From NCBI RefSeq assembly GCF_009811755.1, contig NZ_BLIV01000008.1, positions 1 through 64,000 of the forward strand: a stretch of 64,000 nucleotides of DNA, read 5' to 3'. Every line of letters starts with the position of its first letter. Position 1 is the stretch's first letter. This document shows positions 16,378-23,228 of this stretch, piece by piece. The translations under genes were made by a program, and so were the position numbers. The DNA comes from Roseobacter cerasinus. GTDB lineage: Bacteria; Pseudomonadota; Alphaproteobacteria; Rhodobacterales; Rhodobacteraceae. The notes under the pieces were generated by a model. That model searched no databases. It saw nothing but the letters and a program-made list of their open reading frames with translations, and was not told where the DNA came from.

Positions 16378-16867
16378 TCAATGTAAAAATGCGGGGGGTT
16401 CGACGACTGTCAGGATGCGTATCTTGCGGCCCGTCGCCAGTTGGTCGTGCACGAAGTCCATCGCCCAAACATCATTTGGGTTCACGGCCTCTTTGCGGTC
16501 GTCGCGAAGCTTCGCCTTTACACGTCGTTTGGGTGTCTTGTTCCTGAGCTGCATACCCAACTCCTTGTAAACTCGGTAAGTCTTCTTGGCATTGATCTCC
16601 CAACCCTCCCGGCGCAGAAGCACATGGACGCGCCGATAACCAAACCGCACGCGCGGCTCACAAATCTCCTTGATCCGCTGCTCCAACGCGGCCTGGTCGC
16701 GCCGACGAAACTTGTACCGGTATGTCCGCGGATCGAACCGGATAAGCCCACAGGCCCTCCGGATAAACGAGGACGTTTTCAGGAGACACAGCACCTTTCG
16801 AAGGAGCAAACGAATGCGAAAGAGCCGTTTTGCCGAGGCACAGATGATCGGTATGATCAAAGAATAA
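16378..16867. mobile_element. Head-to-head IS3-family relics
   Basis: On the minus strand (about 16390-16780) lies the first half of an IS3 OrfB: RRACGLIRFDPRTYRYKFRR, FGYRRVHVLLRREGW and NDVWAMDFVHDQLATGR, breaking off after LTVVE, before the second catalytic Asp. On the plus strand a 17-residue OrfA start, MRKSRFAEAQMIGMIKE, with its own AAGGAGC ribosome site, occupies 16814-16867 and then hits a stop. Opposite orientations mean rearrangement or nested insertions. Neither is functional. Confidence 0.8.
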
Positions 16868-17306: not shown

Positions 17307-17768
17307 TCAGGTGGCAATGTCGGGCACGTAGGTCCCACGATCCAGGAAAGATTTGAACACGATAACTGTCTCTGATGTGTCGATGCCGGGGATCTCATAG
17401 AGGCGCTCATATAGCTCTTCCATCTGGGCCGGTCCTTCTGTTCTGACCTTCAACAGAATGGAAAACTGGCCAGCGGTCGAATGGATTTCTTCGATCTCCG
17501 GCACTTTGACGAGCTGAGCAACCTGTTGCTGTTTCTGAGACCCATTGGTCTTCAACAGAACGAATGAAAGCAAGCTCCGACCGACTTTCTCAGGATCGAT
17601 CATCAAACGATTCCCAAGAATGATCCCGGCGGCTTTTAACCTCTTAATTCGTTCGTGAACACCGGGCCCTGAGAGGCCAACCTGCTCCCCAAGTGCTGCG
17701 TTCGTTATATCCGCGTCTTTTTGTAAGATATTGATAATCTTACGATCTTTTTCGTCCATTGCCGACAT
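17307..17768 (-). CDS. Lrp/AsnC-family regulator
   Basis: Transcription regulator of 153 residues. The helix-turn-helix spans residues 5-60 (LGEQVGLSGPGVHERIKRLK), followed by a RAM ligand-binding domain (IEEIHSTAGQFSILLKV; LYEIPGIDTSETVIV). Such proteins sense amino acids. It is divergent from the dioxygenase-led cluster, with a promoter-like region between, so it probably regulates those genes in response to the pathway's amino-acid substrate or product. That link is inference from position. Confidence 0.88.
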   Translation of the reverse strand: MSAMDEKDRKIINILQKDADITNAALGEQVGLSGPGVHERIKRLKAAGIILGNRLMIDPEKVGRSLLSFVLLKTNGSQKQQQVAQLVKVPEIEEIHSTAGQFSILLKVRTEGPAQMEELYERLYEIPGIDTSETVIVFKSFLDRGTYVPDIAT

Positions 17769-17790
17769 GGCGAGAATCCCCGTAGCTGAG

Positions 17791-17818
17791 TTGACAATTT
17801 GTAAATCATTGCCATAAT
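17791..17818 (+). promoter_or_regulatory. Sigma70-like promoter for the dioxygenase cluster
   Basis: TTGACA at 17791 and CATAAT at 17813, 16 bases apart, in an AT-rich divergent region. It points toward the dioxygenase gene, leaving a leader of about 140 bases. The region is much richer in A and T than its flanks. Confidence 0.5.
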
Positions 17819-17868
17819 TTTATTACATTTAGTCAGCATAGTTTTGCTAGCACTTACAAAGTATCAGT

Positions 17869-17884
17869 GCAATGCTCGCATTGC
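17869..17884. promoter_or_regulatory. Palindrome in divergent region
   Basis: GCAATGCTCGCATTGC, a perfect 6-bp inverted repeat around CTCG, lies between the promoter-like site and the first gene. It could be a binding site of the adjacent Lrp-type protein or a leader hairpin; the sequence does not decide. Confidence 0.35.
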
Positions 17885-17964
17885 TTACTTTTTACTTACG
17901 CCCCTCGTTTGGCTGTGCCGCGAAGTGATGCGTCATCGCTAAGAGACCACAAATGGAGGACACA

Positions 17965-18702
17965 ATGAACGATCAAGTCGCCGGTGAGCTTGCAGCACAA
18001 GGCTATTCGTACATCGCTGCGCCAGATTTTGGTGTCCCGAATGCCACGGACAGCGACTTTGCAAGGCTGGCCGATGAGTGGAACAGGCTTGAGACAGACA
18101 ACTACCTGCAGGAAAATGCGACGTTTCGGGAACGGCGATTTGGCAGGTTCGCTTATCAGCCCTCGACCCAGACCGTGGTGCAACTGAAGCATACGCCTTA
18201 TTTTCAAGCAGCAGGGACCAACACCTATGCCGGGGGCATCCACAGAGTGGTTGCACCCCTGACGGAGCAGTTCGCCAAGGACCCCCTGCTGTCTGATTTG
18301 ATCAAACAGGACTTCGACTGTTTTCCGACGCGATCCTTTGACAAGTCAGAGTGGTGGTATGTGGCCTGTCACCTGTTCCGCATCATTGGCCGCGATGGAG
18401 AAGAAGGTGAGCCCACACCTGAAGGCGTTCACCGAGACGACATCAACTATGGCGCCATGCACTTGATGGACCGGGTGAACGCGACCGGTGGTCTGTCACG
18501 TATCCACGCGGAAGATCATTCAATCGCTGCTGAGCTGTGCCTGAAAAACCGTCTCGATACGTTGTTTTGGGCGGATGAACAGGTCCTTCATTCCGTCACA
18601 CCCATCAGACCAAGCGACACGCAACGATCTGCGGTCCGTGACATCCTGATCCTTGGCTACACGCATTCCCCCAACATCCTAGAAGAAGAAGGAACATCAT
18701 AA
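17965..18702 (+). CDS. 2OG-Fe(II) dioxygenase, amino-acid hydroxylase type
   Basis: A 245-residue enzyme of the 2OG-Fe dioxygenase family that includes bacterial L-isoleucine 4-hydroxylase. Iron ligands are visible: H156 and D158 in GVHRDD, and H209 in QVLHSVTPIRP, with a following Arg suited to bind 2-oxoglutarate. The ATG at 17965 follows GGAGGACACA. It heads a rightward cluster and its stop is one base from the exporter start. Expected reaction: hydroxylation of a free amino acid or pathway intermediate; the substrate is unknown. Confidence 0.85.
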   Translation: MNDQVAGELAAQGYSYIAAPDFGVPNATDSDFARLADEWNRLETDNYLQENATFRERRFGRFAYQPSTQTVVQLKHTPYFQAAGTNTYAGGIHRVVAPLTEQFAKDPLLSDLIKQDFDCFPTRSFDKSEWWYVACHLFRIIGRDGEEGEPTPEGVHRDDINYGAMHLMDRVNATGGLSRIHAEDHSIAAELCLKNRLDTLFWADEQVLHSVTPIRPSDTQRSAVRDILILGYTHSPNILEEEGTS

Positions 18703-18703
18703 A

Positions 18704-19606
18704 GTGTCCTCATCCGCTGAACCGACAGCCACATTCAAGAACTTCTCCGCGCTGGTCATAGCATGTCTCGTGATTGTCTATCTCGTCTGGGGATCGACAT
18801 ATCTGGCCATCGCACTTGTTCTGGAAACCATGCCCCCACTCCTGCAAACCAGTGCACGTTTTCTGGCAGCAGGGGTTGTCCTAATTGCGTTCCTCGCCAT
18901 TCGGGGAACTCTTGTAATCCCGAGCTTGCGCCAATTGTTCAACTGCACTCTGGTTGGTGGCTCCATGCTGGGCCTGGGTGTCGGCGGAATTGCGATCGCA
19001 GAACAGACGATTTCCAGCGGCCTTGCATCTGTTGGGATCGCAACTGTTCCCATCTGGGCCGTTATCTTCTCGGGATTATTCGCGCGCCAATGGCCAAATA
19101 ATTGGGAATGGCTTGGACTGTGCCTGGGTTTCGCAGGGGTCATCCTTCTGAACATGCAAAGTGGCTTCGGGGCGACGGGCTGGGGCGCGCTCATTATCGT
19201 AATGGCAGCCCTTTTCTGGTCCTTGGGTTCCGTCGCAAGCAAGTTGTTGTCATTGCCCGCAGGCCCATCCGCTTACGCCTTTGAAATGCTCATGGGAGGC
19301 CTTGCGATCGGTATCATTGGTTTAGCTGTCAACGAGAGCTTCACCGTCTTTCCGTCCATGCGGTCCCTTGGTGCCTGGCTCTTTCTGGTAGTAGGCGGGT
19401 CTCTGTTTGCATACTCCGCATACATGTACCTGCTGCAGACGGTCCGGACCTCGGTGGCGACAAGTTATGCGTTCATCACGCCTGTCGTGGCCATCCTGCT
19501 TGGCGTCTACTTCCTGGAAGAAACGCTGGACGCTTACTCCTTTGGAGCGATGGTCTGCGTCATCGCTGGCGTCTTGTGCATCTTCAGAGGCCGGGAAGAA
19601 GGCTGA
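18704..19606 (+). CDS. EamA/DMT-family exporter
   Basis: Drug/metabolite-type membrane transporter, 300 residues, ten hydrophobic helices in two EamA repeats (LVWGSTYLAIALVLETMPP; SYAFITPVVAILLGVYFLEE). It starts with GTG one base after the dioxygenase stop. Family members often export amino acids and metabolites. In this cluster it most likely exports the product or relieves its accumulation. Confidence 0.88.
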   Translation: MSSSAEPTATFKNFSALVIACLVIVYLVWGSTYLAIALVLETMPPLLQTSARFLAAGVVLIAFLAIRGTLVIPSLRQLFNCTLVGGSMLGLGVGGIAIAEQTISSGLASVGIATVPIWAVIFSGLFARQWPNNWEWLGLCLGFAGVILLNMQSGFGATGWGALIIVMAALFWSLGSVASKLLSLPAGPSAYAFEMLMGGLAIGIIGLAVNESFTVFPSMRSLGAWLFLVVGGSLFAYSAYMYLLQTVRTSVATSYAFITPVVAILLGVYFLEETLDAYSFGAMVCVIAGVLCIFRGREEG

Positions 19607-19678
19607 TCTGAGCACAAACAACAACAAAATATCTGGAATTGGGGACTTAACTCACACTAACGATCAAGGAAGTCTGAT

Positions 19679-20263
19679 ATGTTTCACGACGAGCGAGTTC
19701 TTTTCATTGGCGATGGATCAGGTTGGAGTTTTCTAGCAGCGACCCAGCTTAGACGGCTTTGCGGTCAGGTTGATGCCATCTTCTGGGACCATGGAACCCC
19801 CCGCCCAAAGGATCACCTGAATTGGAAAGGCGACTGGATCTTCACCTTTAAGGCTGACCTTGTTCTTCCAGAAACAGTGCTTTCAAAGGCAAGAAAGGGC
19901 GCAATAAACTTCCATCCTGCGCCCCCATCATATCGCGGCATCGGCGGGTATTACTTCGCCCTCGCGGACGGGTGCAAAACCTTCGGGGCAACCTGTCACC
20001 ACATGGACGACAAGATCGACCACGGTGACATCATTGCCGTTGATCACTTTGCCGTCTTCGAAGACGAGACGCCGGCCAGTTTGACGGACCGCACCGCGCA
20101 CGTCTGCCTGGGTCTCTTCTATCGAATGATCAACCAGATAGATCGAACGGGCCAAATTGTTCCGGAAGACAGAGAGACGTGGGGGGACCACCTCTACACG
20201 CGCAAGCAGCTCTCAAAACTCCACAAAGAACAACGTGCTGCCAAACAGCTCTCACTCGCTTAG
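19679..20263 (+). CDS. Formyltransferase (formyl_trans_N) protein
   Basis: A 194-residue single-domain enzyme of the N10-formyltetrahydrofolate formyltransferase fold. The catalytic triad is visible: N77 and H79 in INFHPAPPSYRGIGG, and D114 in KIDHGDII. It lacks the C-terminal domain of methionyl-tRNA formyltransferase, so it resembles stand-alone enzymes that formylate amino sugars or amino acids. AAGGAAG precedes the ATG. In this cluster it probably puts a formyl group on an amine before cyclisation; the substrate is inferred only. Confidence 0.83.
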   Translation: MFHDERVLFIGDGSGWSFLAATQLRRLCGQVDAIFWDHGTPRPKDHLNWKGDWIFTFKADLVLPETVLSKARKGAINFHPAPPSYRGIGGYYFALADGCKTFGATCHHMDDKIDHGDIIAVDHFAVFEDETPASLTDRTAHVCLGLFYRMINQIDRTGQIVPEDRETWGDHLYTRKQLSKLHKEQRAAKQLSLA

Positions 20264-20279
20264 GGAAAGGCTTTACCAT

Positions 20280-21491
20280 ATGAAAATCGTACTCGCGTAT
20301 TCTGGCGGTCTGGACACTTCAATTGCGCTGTCATGGTTGCAAGATGCCTACGATGCTGAGGTTGTCGCATTCTGTGCCGACTTGGGCCAGAACGAAGATC
20401 TTTCCTTGGTCAGGCGGCGTGCTGAGAAGAATGGCGCGTCCGCGGTCTACATTGACGATCTTCGCGATGAATTTGTGTCTGACTTTGCCTTCCCAACACT
20501 GCGTGCGGCTGCTCTGTATGAACAGCGTTATCATATGGCGGCGTCTCTCGGGCGCCCTCTTATCGCCAAGCGTCTTGTTGAGATTGCTCACAGGGAAGGC
20601 GCTGATGCGGTCGCACATGGGGCAACGGGAAAGGGCAATGATCAGGTGCGCTTCTTCTCAAGCGTGACCGCCCTTGATCCGTCGCTGAAGGTCATCACCC
20701 CCTTGATGGAATGGGACCTCAAAACCAGGAGCCAGCAAATCGCATATGCAAAGGAGCGTGGTATTGAGCTGCCTCCCTTCAAAACAAGTCCCTACAGTCG
20801 GGACTCCAATCTTTGGGGGACCAGTGTGGAATGTGGCATCCTCGATGAAATCTCCGAGGCTCCGCCAAGCGATGCATATACCTTGACGGACGCACCAGGG
20901 AACCGGCCAGCTGAAGTCATTGAGATCGGCTTTGAGCAGTCCATTCCCACGCACATCAATGGCGAACGGATGACCTCTGCTGTTCTGGTTGAAAAGCTCA
21001 ATGAGATTGGCGGCCGTCACGGAATTGGCCGCCTCGACATCATCGAGAACCGACTGGTCGGCTTCAAGGTACGCGGTGTCTACGAGTCACCAGCGGCTGA
21101 AATCCTGTTCCAGGCAAAGCGGGAGCTGGACGCGCTGGTTCACGAGCGGGACCTTCTGCATATGATCCCTTATCTGTCGCAGCAGTACAGCCAACTCGTT
21201 TATGACGGGAAGTGGTTTAGCCAAGCGCGAGACGCATTGGATAGCTTCTTCATATCCATCGGTGACCGCGTCACGGGTGTCGTGAAGCTCGAGCTGACAT
21301 CCGGGCGCATTGCCGTTCTCTCCAGAGAGGCCAACCGATCTTTGTACAACTTGGATATCGCGTCATATGAATCTGAGTATGGCTTTGATCAGACAGCCGG
21401 TGTTGGGTTCGCCTATATCTGGTCAATGCAGGGACGTGTTGCAGCTCTGAACGATAAAGAGCGCAGATCGAACATGTCTCTTGCTTCTTAG
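20280..21491 (+). CDS. Argininosuccinate-synthase-like ligase
   Basis: A 403-residue ATP-dependent ligase of the argininosuccinate synthase family, full length. The PP-loop is YSGGLDTSIALSWL at the N-terminus, followed by GATGKGNDQVRF, SPYSRDSNLWGTSVECGILD and the C-terminal SYESEYGFDQTAGVGFAY. The ATG at 20280 is supported by GGGAAAGG upstream and by the KIVLAYSGG start. The housekeeping enzyme joins citrulline and aspartate. Here the clustering with EctC-, RidA- and ArgB-like genes, and the absence of argH, argue for a specialised paralogue. Confidence 0.87.
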   Translation: MKIVLAYSGGLDTSIALSWLQDAYDAEVVAFCADLGQNEDLSLVRRRAEKNGASAVYIDDLRDEFVSDFAFPTLRAAALYEQRYHMAASLGRPLIAKRLVEIAHREGADAVAHGATGKGNDQVRFFSSVTALDPSLKVITPLMEWDLKTRSQQIAYAKERGIELPPFKTSPYSRDSNLWGTSVECGILDEISEAPPSDAYTLTDAPGNRPAEVIEIGFEQSIPTHINGERMTSAVLVEKLNEIGGRHGIGRLDIIENRLVGFKVRGVYESPAAEILFQAKRELDALVHERDLLHMIPYLSQQYSQLVYDGKWFSQARDALDSFFISIGDRVTGVVKLELTSGRIAVLSREANRSLYNLDIASYESEYGFDQTAGVGFAYIWSMQGRVAALNDKERRSNMSLAS

Positions 21492-21884
21492 GTGCATCCA
21501 ATGTTGCAAAGCACAGAAAACGTGGATGGGATTTACCCATCCACGGGTGGATATGCACATTCGATGCTTATCGACGCCCCGTCTCGTTGGCTTGTCACAA
21601 GCGGAACCATGGGTCTTGATTGTGACTGGAACGCTCTGCCAACAATTGACGCGCAACTGGACGCAATCTGGACCAACATAGATGCGATACTGTCAGCGAA
21701 TGCCTTCTCTCTGAGCGACATTGTTCATCTGAACTGTATGCTTGCAGATCCTTCCTATTCCAAAGCGAACGCAGCGGCGATCCGAAGCGCCTTGAACGGT
21801 CGTGCCGTGCCCCGCACCGTCTTCTGCGTCCAACTGCTCGACCAATCATGGTTGGCGGAAATCCAAGTCACAGCGGCACAGTGA
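21492..21884 (+). CDS. RidA/YjgF-family protein
   Basis: A 130-residue RidA-like protein (SRWLVTSGTMGLDCDW; IWTNIDAILSANAFSLSDIV; GRAVPRTVFCVQLL). RidA proteins hydrolyse reactive enamine/imine intermediates. The C-terminus reads SWLAEIQVTAA where canonical RidA has a KVEIEAIA-type end. The start is GTG directly after the ligase stop, or ATG at 21501. Its place in the cluster suggests a step with an imine intermediate. Confidence 0.8.
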   Translation: MHPMLQSTENVDGIYPSTGGYAHSMLIDAPSRWLVTSGTMGLDCDWNALPTIDAQLDAIWTNIDAILSANAFSLSDIVHLNCMLADPSYSKANAAAIRSALNGRAVPRTVFCVQLLDQSWLAEIQVTAAQ

Positions 21885-21893
21885 GGGCTGTCT

Positions 21894-22274
21894 ATGATCA
21901 TTCAAAACCTGCACGACCTCCGAGGATCGCAAAGGTACACAAGCCGCCCGAATTGGGACTCGACGCGACTTATCGTTGCCGATGATCAAATGGGGTTTTC
22001 ACTTCATGTCACGCGCATCTTTCCCGGCGAAACCGGCCTAACCGAGTACCCTGAACATGTTGAGGCTGCCTATTGCCTCTCGGGCCGTGCAACGCTGATC
22101 TATGACGATGGAGCAACACGCACCGAGATCGCTCCTGGCGTCGTCTATGCGCTGAACCAACACGATCCCCACAGAATGGTTGTGCATGAAGAGCTTAACC
22201 TCGTCTGTGTGTTTAATCCCCCTCTCGCTGGTTCTGAAAACGTCTCGGCCAGCGCCGCAAAGGAGGCTCGCTAA
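21894..22274 (+). CDS. EctC-like cyclase (ectoine synthase family cupin)
   Basis: A 126-residue cupin with EctC features along its length: the MII(V)xNLxDLRG start, MGFSLHVTRIFPGETGLTEY, HVEAAYCLSGRATLIYDDG, PGVVYALNQHDPHRM and VCVFNPPLAG. EctC closes N-gamma-acetyl-diaminobutyrate to ectoine. No ectA, ectB or ask_ect is present here. Instead the neighbours encode a formyltransferase, ligase and kinase, so it is a solitary EctC acting on another substrate. Its stop overlaps the kinase start by one base. Confidence 0.85.
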   Translation: MIIQNLHDLRGSQRYTSRPNWDSTRLIVADDQMGFSLHVTRIFPGETGLTEYPEHVEAAYCLSGRATLIYDDGATRTEIAPGVVYALNQHDPHRMVVHEELNLVCVFNPPLAGSENVSASAAKEAR

Positions 22275-23152
22275 TGATACACCCGCCAGAAATCCAGCCA
22301 GAGGACCGCCACAGAAATCCTCGACTCGGCTGCAATGCCTGCGGCTCACCGTGCCAGAAGACTGTTTCACAAAGGCGGCCAGTCGTCGTCAAAATCGGCG
22401 GCGACATTGCGTCTAACGACCAGGCACTCAGCTTCTTCACCCAACAAGTCTTGGAGCTAAAGGGACGCGGCAAAGCGGTTATCGTCGTTCATGGAGGCGG
22501 GCCATCGATCAACTTGGCGCTGCAGCGTGAAGGGATCGCGTACCAGTTTTCTCAGGGCAGTCGGATAACGACGGCCGATGTGATGAACGTCGTGCAGAGA
22601 ACATTGCTTGGTGAGGTGAACCCACGTGTTGTTTCTGAGCTCAATCGCGCAAGGGTCCGCTCTGCCGGCATTTCGGGGCTGGACGGCCACTTCATCCCAT
22701 GTGAGCAATCTGACCCTGTGTTGGGGTTTGTGGGCAGGCCGTCGCAGCTAGACCCAAGCATGTTGTCGGCACTGTTAGACAACAACATCACGCCCGTCGT
22801 CGCTCCAATTGGGGTCGACAAACAGGGGCGTGTCCACAATGTGAACGCAGACACTTTTGCTGGGTTCATCGCTGAAAAGCTGCAAGCATCAGCGCTTCTG
22901 ATCTTGACCAACGTGAACGGTGTGATGACAAAATGTGGGACAACGCTGGAAAAGGTGTCCACCGAAGTCTTCGACAACCTCGTCAAAACAGGTTCCGTCA
23001 AAGGAGGAATGACGCCAAAGATACAAGCAGCCCTAAAAGCGTTCAGCCAAGGTGTGCCACGAGCTGTAATTGTTGACGGCCGCAAGGCCCGTTCTGCGGT
23101 TCGCGCGCTCGAAGGGTTTTCTGGCGTGGGAACGCATATCGCTGCTCCTTGA
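22274..23152 (+). CDS. Acetylglutamate-kinase-like enzyme
   Basis: Amino-acid-kinase-fold protein, 292 residues, of the ArgB family: VVVKIGGDIAS, VVHGGGPSINLAL, SGLDGHFIP, VNADTFAGFIAEKL, LTNVNGVM and GGMTPKIQAAL. It would phosphorylate a carboxylate (N-acylated acidic amino acid in the family). An unusual N-terminal extension of about 37 residues contains CNACGSPC. No in-frame alternative start before the kinase fold was found. The start overlaps the EctC-like stop. As part of this cluster it is likely a specialised paralogue rather than the housekeeping argB. Confidence 0.85.
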   Translation: MIHPPEIQPEDRHRNPRLGCNACGSPCQKTVSQRRPVVVKIGGDIASNDQALSFFTQQVLELKGRGKAVIVVHGGGPSINLALQREGIAYQFSQGSRITTADVMNVVQRTLLGEVNPRVVSELNRARVRSAGISGLDGHFIPCEQSDPVLGFVGRPSQLDPSMLSALLDNNITPVVAPIGVDKQGRVHNVNADTFAGFIAEKLQASALLILTNVNGVMTKCGTTLEKVSTEVFDNLVKTGSVKGGMTPKIQAALKAFSQGVPRAVIVDGRKARSAVRALEGFSGVGTHIAAP

Positions 23153-23203: not shown

Positions 23204-23228
23204 GCCCGGCCGCGTGCCGGGCTTTTTT
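23204..23228 (+). terminator. Rho-independent terminator of the EctC/ArgB cluster
   Basis: Perfect 7-bp GC stem GCCCGGC / GCCGGGC around CGCGT, directly followed by six T residues. It lies 52 bases past the kinase stop and fits as the end of the rightward cluster. Confidence 0.85.

Follow-up and report, generated by a model that had tools for sequence, protein, structure and literature searches.

A candidate operon for a specialised amino-acid product in Roseobacter cerasinus

The operon and its enzymes

The window analysed here is a stretch of 64,000 nucleotides of Roseobacter cerasinus (NCBI RefSeq assembly GCF_009811755.1, contig NZ_BLIV01000008.1, positions 1 to 64,000 of the forward strand), taken from what we call contig C8 of the 4.47-Mb genome. 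Within it, seven intact plus-strand genes spanning 17953–23152 encode, in this order, a PF10014 dioxygenase, an EamA exporter, a formyltransferase, ArgG, a RidA-family protein, EctC and ArgB. We consider it highly probable that this operon serves the production of a specialised amino acid. Its features are as follows (E, expectation value).

17307–17768, minus strand: divergent Lrp/AsnC-type regulator, 153 amino acids (PF13404 and PF01037 over cut-off)
17791–17818, plus strand: candidate sigma-70-type promoter, TTGACA-16-CATAAT with extended -10 (11 of 12 consensus matches)
17869–17884, no strand assigned: short palindrome 3' of the promoter, a possible operator (listed as a stem)
17953–18702, plus strand: 2-oxoglutarate (2OG)-Fe dioxygenase, 249 amino acids (PF10014, E 5.5e-55)
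18704–19606, plus strand: EamA/DMT-family exporter, 300 amino acids (PF00892, E 5e-32)
19679–20263, plus strand: free-standing formyltransferase, 194 amino acids, catalytic domain only (PF00551, Formyl_trans_N, E 1.9e-17)
20280–21491, plus strand: ArgG paralogue, 403 amino acids (passes the ArgG equivalogs NF001770 and TIGR00032)
21492–21884, plus strand: RidA-family protein, 130 amino acids (PF01042, Ribonuc_L-PSP, E 6.7e-12)
21894–22274, plus strand: EctC, ectoine-synthase-type cyclase, 126 amino acids (PF06339, 128.5 bits; NF009806, 131.8 against a cut-off of 128)
22274–23152, plus strand: ArgB paralogue of N-acetylglutamate-kinase type (AA_kinase), 292 amino acids (TIGR00761, 215.7 against 151.3)
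23204–23222, plus strand: intrinsic terminator, a hairpin with 7 G-C pairs and a TTTTTT run after it (sequence scan)

All eight open reading frames (ORFs), that of the regulator included, are intact. The dioxygenase and exporter genes are separated by 1 bp, exporter and formyltransferase by 72 bp, formyltransferase and ArgG by 16 bp, ArgG and RidA by 0 bp, and RidA and EctC by 9 bp, while the EctC stop and the ArgB start share 1 bp. A preliminary description of this DNA had given seven co-directional genes with short gaps or overlaps, a divergent Lrp-type regulator and a closing terminator, and the intact frames and their spacing confirm that layout. Pfam likewise agrees with the families it had named (AsnC/Lrp, PF10014, EamA, Formyl_trans_N, ArgG, Ribonuc_L-PSP, Ectoine_synth and AA_kinase), and its remark that the usual ectoine and arginine partners are missing also stands, there being no ectA, ectB, ask, argC or argH in the operon's gene list.

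The case for the promoter depends on the strength of the site at 17791–17818 and not on the number of such sites, since five promoter-like sites were found in the region against 3.6 expected by shuffling; terminator-like sites numbered six, against 7.1 expected. A separate imperfect inverted repeat is found at 17792–17804/17854–17866. The divergent regulator reaches no Lrp/AsnC equivalog cut-off. G+C content is 51–56% across the operon and 54–61% in its surroundings, and upstream, at 16378–16860 on the minus strand, there is a transposase-like fragment with an HTH_21 domain, a possible mobile-element boundary. We take the operon to be real, and probably functional.

Several of the encoded proteins retain the residues expected of active enzymes. 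In the dioxygenase, H160, D162, H213 and R229 are invariant in six aligned rows, the window protein included; the first three we take to be the HxD...H metal ligands and R229 the 2OG-binding arginine. A solved relative exists (9dqp, E 5.6e-68), and an amino-acid hydroxylase is the likely function. Streptomyces relatives of 44–47% identity sit beside polyketide or other unrelated genes and therefore do not tell us the substrate, and a structure prediction of the protein alone gave a mean predicted local distance difference test score of only 34.9. In the formyltransferase, N77, H79 and D114 are invariant in five aligned rows, again with the window protein among them, and are presumably the Asn-His-Asp catalytic set of formyl-tetrahydrofolate-dependent formyltransferases. 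The exporter scores 269.9 bits against the YedA model, just under its cut-off of 270. The RidA-family protein meets the wider Pfam family, yet falls below the RidA subfamily cut-off (TIGR00004, 29.1 against 106.25 bits).

The EctC protein is well preserved. Trp21, Ser23, Arg25, Thr40, Tyr52, Glu57, Tyr84, His92 and Phe106 are given, in the text available to us, as the residues of P. lautus EctC that bind iron, substrate and product (PMC6344544), and the window protein keeps the P. lautus active-site residues, with Tyr84, His92 and Phe106 at its positions 85, 93 and 107, except for Asn38, which is His here as it is in 5bxx, the S. alaskensis EctC. Among the 44 relatives examined, Arg25, Tyr52, Glu57, Tyr85, His93 and Phe107 are kept in every one, Ser23 in 43, Thr40 in 42, Trp21 in 38 and His38 in 34. 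By the passages seen of the published work, EctC cyclises N-gamma-acetyl-diaminobutyrate and, poorly, glutamine (PMC5924519, PMC6344544), and the role of orphan EctC proteins is called unresolved (PMC5924519). The genome encodes a second EctC, 43% identical to the first, on contig C10 (L128:7163–7591), and no ectA or ectB was recognised, as judged by eye, among the ORFs around it.

A standard ectoine operon was rejected as a description of the locus: ectA and ectB are not next to ectC, though the EctC active site is kept. We also considered an ectoine-like solute, for which the formyltransferase would replace EctA, EctC would form desmethyl-ectoine from N-formyl-diaminobutyrate, the dioxygenase would replace EctD, and ArgG and ArgB would be accessory. 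The intact EctC active site suits such a scheme, as does the presence together of formyltransferase, EctC and hydroxylase. However, in a search with the Dat diaminobutyrate-aminotransferase model, and not with that for EctB, no protein of the genome reaches the cut-off of 401.6 bits, the top score being 236.4; an exporter and an Lrp-type regulator are, by established knowledge, unlike an osmolyte operon, and ArgG is left unexplained. We regard this solute as a very unlikely product.

Paralogous ArgG and ArgB, and the formyltransferase–ArgG pair

The genome encodes another ArgG on contig C2 (46% identical to the window ArgG) and another ArgB on contig C1 (40%); therefore the operon's ArgG and ArgB are paralogues, and not the only copies, a finding that the preliminary description said would have pointed to chance clustering. 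The alignment of the window ArgB with the genome's other ArgB extends along the kinase domain; the window protein also has an N-terminal C-x2-C-x3-C stretch (22331–22354) that the other copy lacks. One ArgH over the family cut-off is found in the genome, on contig C1. An arginine biosynthesis operon carrying the genome's only ArgB and ArgG was considered and rejected, given the second copies elsewhere and the absence of argC and argH.

Nine residues contacting citrulline or aspartate are listed, in the part of the paper available, for human argininosuccinate synthetase (PMC13289927). Placing the human numbering on the window ArgG by means of motifs, we find all nine retained. The protein nevertheless belongs to a distinct clade, for it groups with two ArgGs from Streptomyces plasmids and a further two from R. 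fascians, with support of 100/99 against 23 other ArgGs ("ordinary" being our own label for those 23). The tree drew its rows from Pseudomonadota, Actinomycetota, Bacillota and Thermomicrobiota, and the final version left out 15 of the 29 anonymous Pseudomonadota rows and two rows of the distant ArgG-like proteins that we call argG_rel. It was rebuilt with seven more rows after a first version that lacked other phyla, in which the five-row clade had support of 88/67 and a long-branch warning. Nearest to the clade are two Actinomycetota ArgGs and an Anoxybacillus ArgG (100/98, midpoint root). Judged by this tree, the clade is within the ArgG family and the window ArgG was probably acquired from outside.

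At 28 positions, the start residue not counted, the clade has residues that occur in none of the 23 other ArgGs. Among them, positions 126, 143 and 272 carry E, R and G in all 23 others but F/Y, M/I and A in the clade, and at 87–88 the clade has A-A, where the others have G/V and T/S. These selected changes lie near contact residues in the sequence, and several polar-to-apolar swaps would be in keeping with a substrate that has no ureido NH2. Of the two Streptomyces plasmid members (L030 and L031), the L031 ArgG adjoins a DUF6875 protein and an ORF with a sub-threshold protein-kinase match. Elsewhere, plasmid ArgGs stand divergent from an Lrp-type regulator in Agrobacterium vitis (L032) and Rhizobium sp. 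AB2/73 (L151), and in the tree these fall with the second ArgG of the R. cerasinus genome.

The R. fascians members stand beside a formyltransferase of the same kind as ours. The window formyltransferase matched 106 of 72,556 plasmid records, the top three all from R. fascians (46, 45 and 45% identity), and in two R. fascians plasmids the order is LysR-type regulator, LysE exporter, ArgH, ArgG, formyltransferase, then five more genes to ArgJ, with the ArgH, ArgG and formyltransferase genes overlapping. In the portions of the literature seen, the att locus of pFiD188 is described as ten genes, its metabolite not identified (PMC4092121, PMC7261884, PMC12130866). Because LysR to ArgJ likewise makes ten genes, we take the R. 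fascians locus to be att, going by gene count rather than by gene-by-gene names. Maes et al. 2001 is said to be the primary att paper. The window operon has one trait of the att type, a formyltransferase next to an ArgG of the same clade.

The principal competing explanation is that the ArgB and ArgG isoenzymes simply raise the supply of citrulline and arginine for an arginine-derived product, ArgG using citrulline, while the dioxygenase would hydroxylate arginine or ornithine, the formyltransferase formylate it and EctC cyclise it. The nine contacts kept by ArgG fit this explanation, as do its equivalog matches and the ArgB match to its own model, and the R. fascians locus carries ArgH and ArgJ along with ArgG, as precursor supply predicts. 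Yet the ArgG is of a distinct clade and changed at positions fixed in 23 others; argF and argJ, like argC and argH, are absent from the operon's gene list; and the repeated adjacency of ArgG and formyltransferase is left unexplained. On balance we think it rather unlikely that arginine supply is the purpose of the operon.

A proposed pathway and its weighing

Our best explanation of the locus as a whole, which we put forward tentatively, is that the operon's product is a small, modified and exported amino acid containing a formyl-derived one-carbon amidine. All substrates, the order of steps and the product are what we infer from the gene set. ArgB, as a paralogous N-acetylglutamate kinase, would raise the flux to ornithine, and the PF10014 dioxygenase would hydroxylate an amino acid. 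The formyltransferase would formylate the side-chain amine of an ornithine-like amino acid to give a formamide, whose oxygen ArgG would adenylate before adding aspartate to form an N-succinyl-formamidine; removal of fumarate by the ArgH found elsewhere in the genome would then leave the formamidine. Attack by the other amine would allow EctC to close the ring to a cyclic formamidine that resembles the ring of ectoine minus its methyl group. The RidA-family protein may clear a reactive imine or enamine, EamA would export the product, and the Lrp-type protein would control the operon.

The route from formamide through N-succinyl-formamidine to formamidine is suggested by the formyltransferase beside a contact-keeping ArgG, together with the ArgH in R. 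fascians. N5-formyl-ornithine differs from citrulline only in bearing H rather than NH2 on the carbonyl carbon, and purine synthesis uses formylation, amidine formation and ring closure in the same order, in another form. We hold the formamidine step a little more loosely than the explanation as a whole, and that the product is exactly the one proposed is improbable. More broadly, formyltransferase, clade ArgG and ArgH might constitute a portable cassette, converting amine to formamide to formamidine in unrelated metabolite clusters and here supplying EctC for the synthesis of a cyclic formamidine amino acid; this generalisation is possible, though we consider it doubtful.

A number of observations weigh against the formamidine pathway. 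The window and R. fascians ArgGs pass the ordinary ArgG equivalog cut-offs and keep the contact residues, and may therefore simply use citrulline; the window ArgG is moreover a long branch in the tree. The operon itself lacks ArgH, ring closure of a formamide by EctC could do without ArgG, and the product and the activities are predictions from the genes. Beyond R. fascians and S. tropica, no further formyltransferase–ArgG pair turned up. No ArgG was found in the ∼1.5-kb flanks of the six non-own Pseudomonadota formyltransferase loci, nor beside related formyltransferases at nine viral loci, and one Actinomycetota match (L124) is on a 3.4-kb contig without ArgG. The Streptomyces plasmid clade ArgGs, for their part, have no related formyltransferase nearby. 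Finally, no second example of the full operon was found among the genomes and plasmids sampled, where the sub-modules alone recur.

Concerning this last point, known genomes were sampled only in small part, and the searches mostly relied on a single marker with short flanks. EctC searches of the genome_contigs set gave 15 loci with flanks of up to 8 kb, in which no other cluster protein matched at E 1e-6 except for a 22.7% ArgB-like match (L023). EctC was matched in 127 of 394 family genomes, our own included, and at 29 non-own family-genome loci the ∼1.5-kb flanks held no other cluster gene. The best non-own ArgG match among 299 Pseudomonadota was 48% identical; ArgB, among 219 Pseudomonadota, was matched in its own genome only at E 1e-62; and the dioxygenase, among 210 genomes of the class, was matched in two others at E 1e-30, with no other cluster gene in the fetched flanks. 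A formyltransferase profile gave matches in 7 Pseudomonadota out of 398 (own included, E 1e-20) and in 2 Actinomycetota out of 396 (E 1e-18); a set of 59 genomes and nine viral contigs were covered as well, and no ArgG lay beside the loci checked. In 18 genomes of the same genus the best formyltransferase match (28% identity) had E 3.7e-9, whereas the gene itself has 1.4e-138. The second Actinomycetota match (L125) is an NRPS-sized frame (NRPS, non-ribosomal peptide synthetase). In Photobacterium sp. GJ3 (L066:3312–9546) a related formyltransferase of 35% identity adjoins a class III aminotransferase, a carbamoyltransferase and an iron-containing redox (haem-oxygenase-like) domain protein.

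A neighbourhood conserved in related strains, the lack of which would in the view of the preliminary description point to chance, has not been seen so far. Such results, and the transposase-like fragment just upstream, are what would be expected if the genes had come together by chance, or were a decaying insertion next to what is left of a transposase. We give this very little credence, because the eight frames are intact, their spacing tight and their active-site residues kept; a promoter and a terminator are also present.

The idea of an operon devoted to an amino-acid derivative that is modified and exported, advanced in the preliminary description, gains from the paralogous ArgG and ArgB, the kept EctC residues, the exporter, the Lrp-type regulator and the recurring formyltransferase–ArgG pair; its wording "hydroxylated, cyclised" stays a suggestion. 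Its statement that no described pathway has this combination of genes holds in the open-access literature searched, where we found no publication combining these parts. What the present analysis adds is the link of formyltransferase and ArgG to the att region and, by its listed annotations, to Salinispora nrps1, and the sets of EamA, ArgG-like and PF10014 genes. The formyltransferase–ArgG pair is the most useful new lead. Annotation models call this ArgG an ordinary argininosuccinate synthase, yet its clade is distinct and one member adjoins a formyltransferase of the same kind in a metabolite locus. Should the pair make formamidines, this would be a new biosynthetic step, would offer a role for an orphan EctC and would open the chemistry of the att signal to testing; the cassette, if true, would provide a first prediction of what kind of compound the R. 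fascians att locus makes.

Comparison with known systems

The window dioxygenase is in the same Pfam family, PF10014, as HilB and the isoleucine dioxygenases, but scores only 39.1 bits against the HilB equivalog cut-off of 350. As in ectABC operons and orphan EctC proteins, the window EctC is over the family cut-offs with its active site kept; unlike that of ectABC operons, it has no adjoining ectA, ectB or ask, and among the matches listed no relative exceeds 48% identity to it.

Sets of EamA, argG_rel and PF10014 genes offer a second comparison. In Agrobacterium vitis (L072) an EamA gene is followed by an argG_rel protein next to a PF10014 dioxygenase; on a plasmid of Rhizobium sp. 007 (L071:4738–6699) the two are fused in a 654-amino-acid frame behind an EamA gene; and on a Vibrio halioticoli plasmid (L153:4695–7835) the argG_rel and PF10014 genes adjoin, followed by a 303-amino-acid ORF. 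These argG_rel proteins are only 27–31% identical to the window ArgG, two rows examined lack four of the nine contact residues (the equivalents of T119, D124, S189 and Y282), and the sets contain no formyltransferase, EctC or ArgB match. Being so distant, and with four contacts lost, they support only the view that in some pathways ArgG-like enzymes act jointly with PF10014 enzymes. An argininosuccinate-synthetase-like nitrile synthetase has reportedly been described, to go by a title among the references of PMC13060819, and ArgG in our operon could similarly activate an amide for dehydration to a nitrile. The recurrence of ArgG-like/PF10014 pairs would fit, as would such chemistry being in print. 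The window ArgG, however, keeps its aspartate contacts, and the distant argG_rel proteins are better candidates, so that nitrile formation here seems most unlikely.

The closest comparisons are with the loci that share the formyltransferase–ArgG pair. The att region (pFiD188, pA21d2) has in common with the window operon an adjoining formyltransferase (45–46% identical) and ArgG (49%), and also has a divergent LysR/ArgP-type regulator, a LysE-type exporter and a 2OG dioxygenase. It differs in carrying ArgH, enoyl-CoA-hydratase-like, Asn-synthase-like and TauD-type dioxygenase genes, absent from the window operon's gene list, as well as an AMP ligase and ArgJ, and no EctC, ArgB, RidA, PF10014 or EamA match was found in the fetched stretches. 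In Salinispora tropica, a proteomics table for the orphan NRPS cluster nrps1 lists ArgG (A4X2R7), a formyltransferase (A4X2R8) and RidA (A4X2P5) (PMC7888443). As an NRPS cluster, nrps1 is unlike the window operon; judged from the annotations listed there, the two are alike in bringing ArgG and formyltransferase, under consecutive accessions in nrps1, together with RidA in one cluster.

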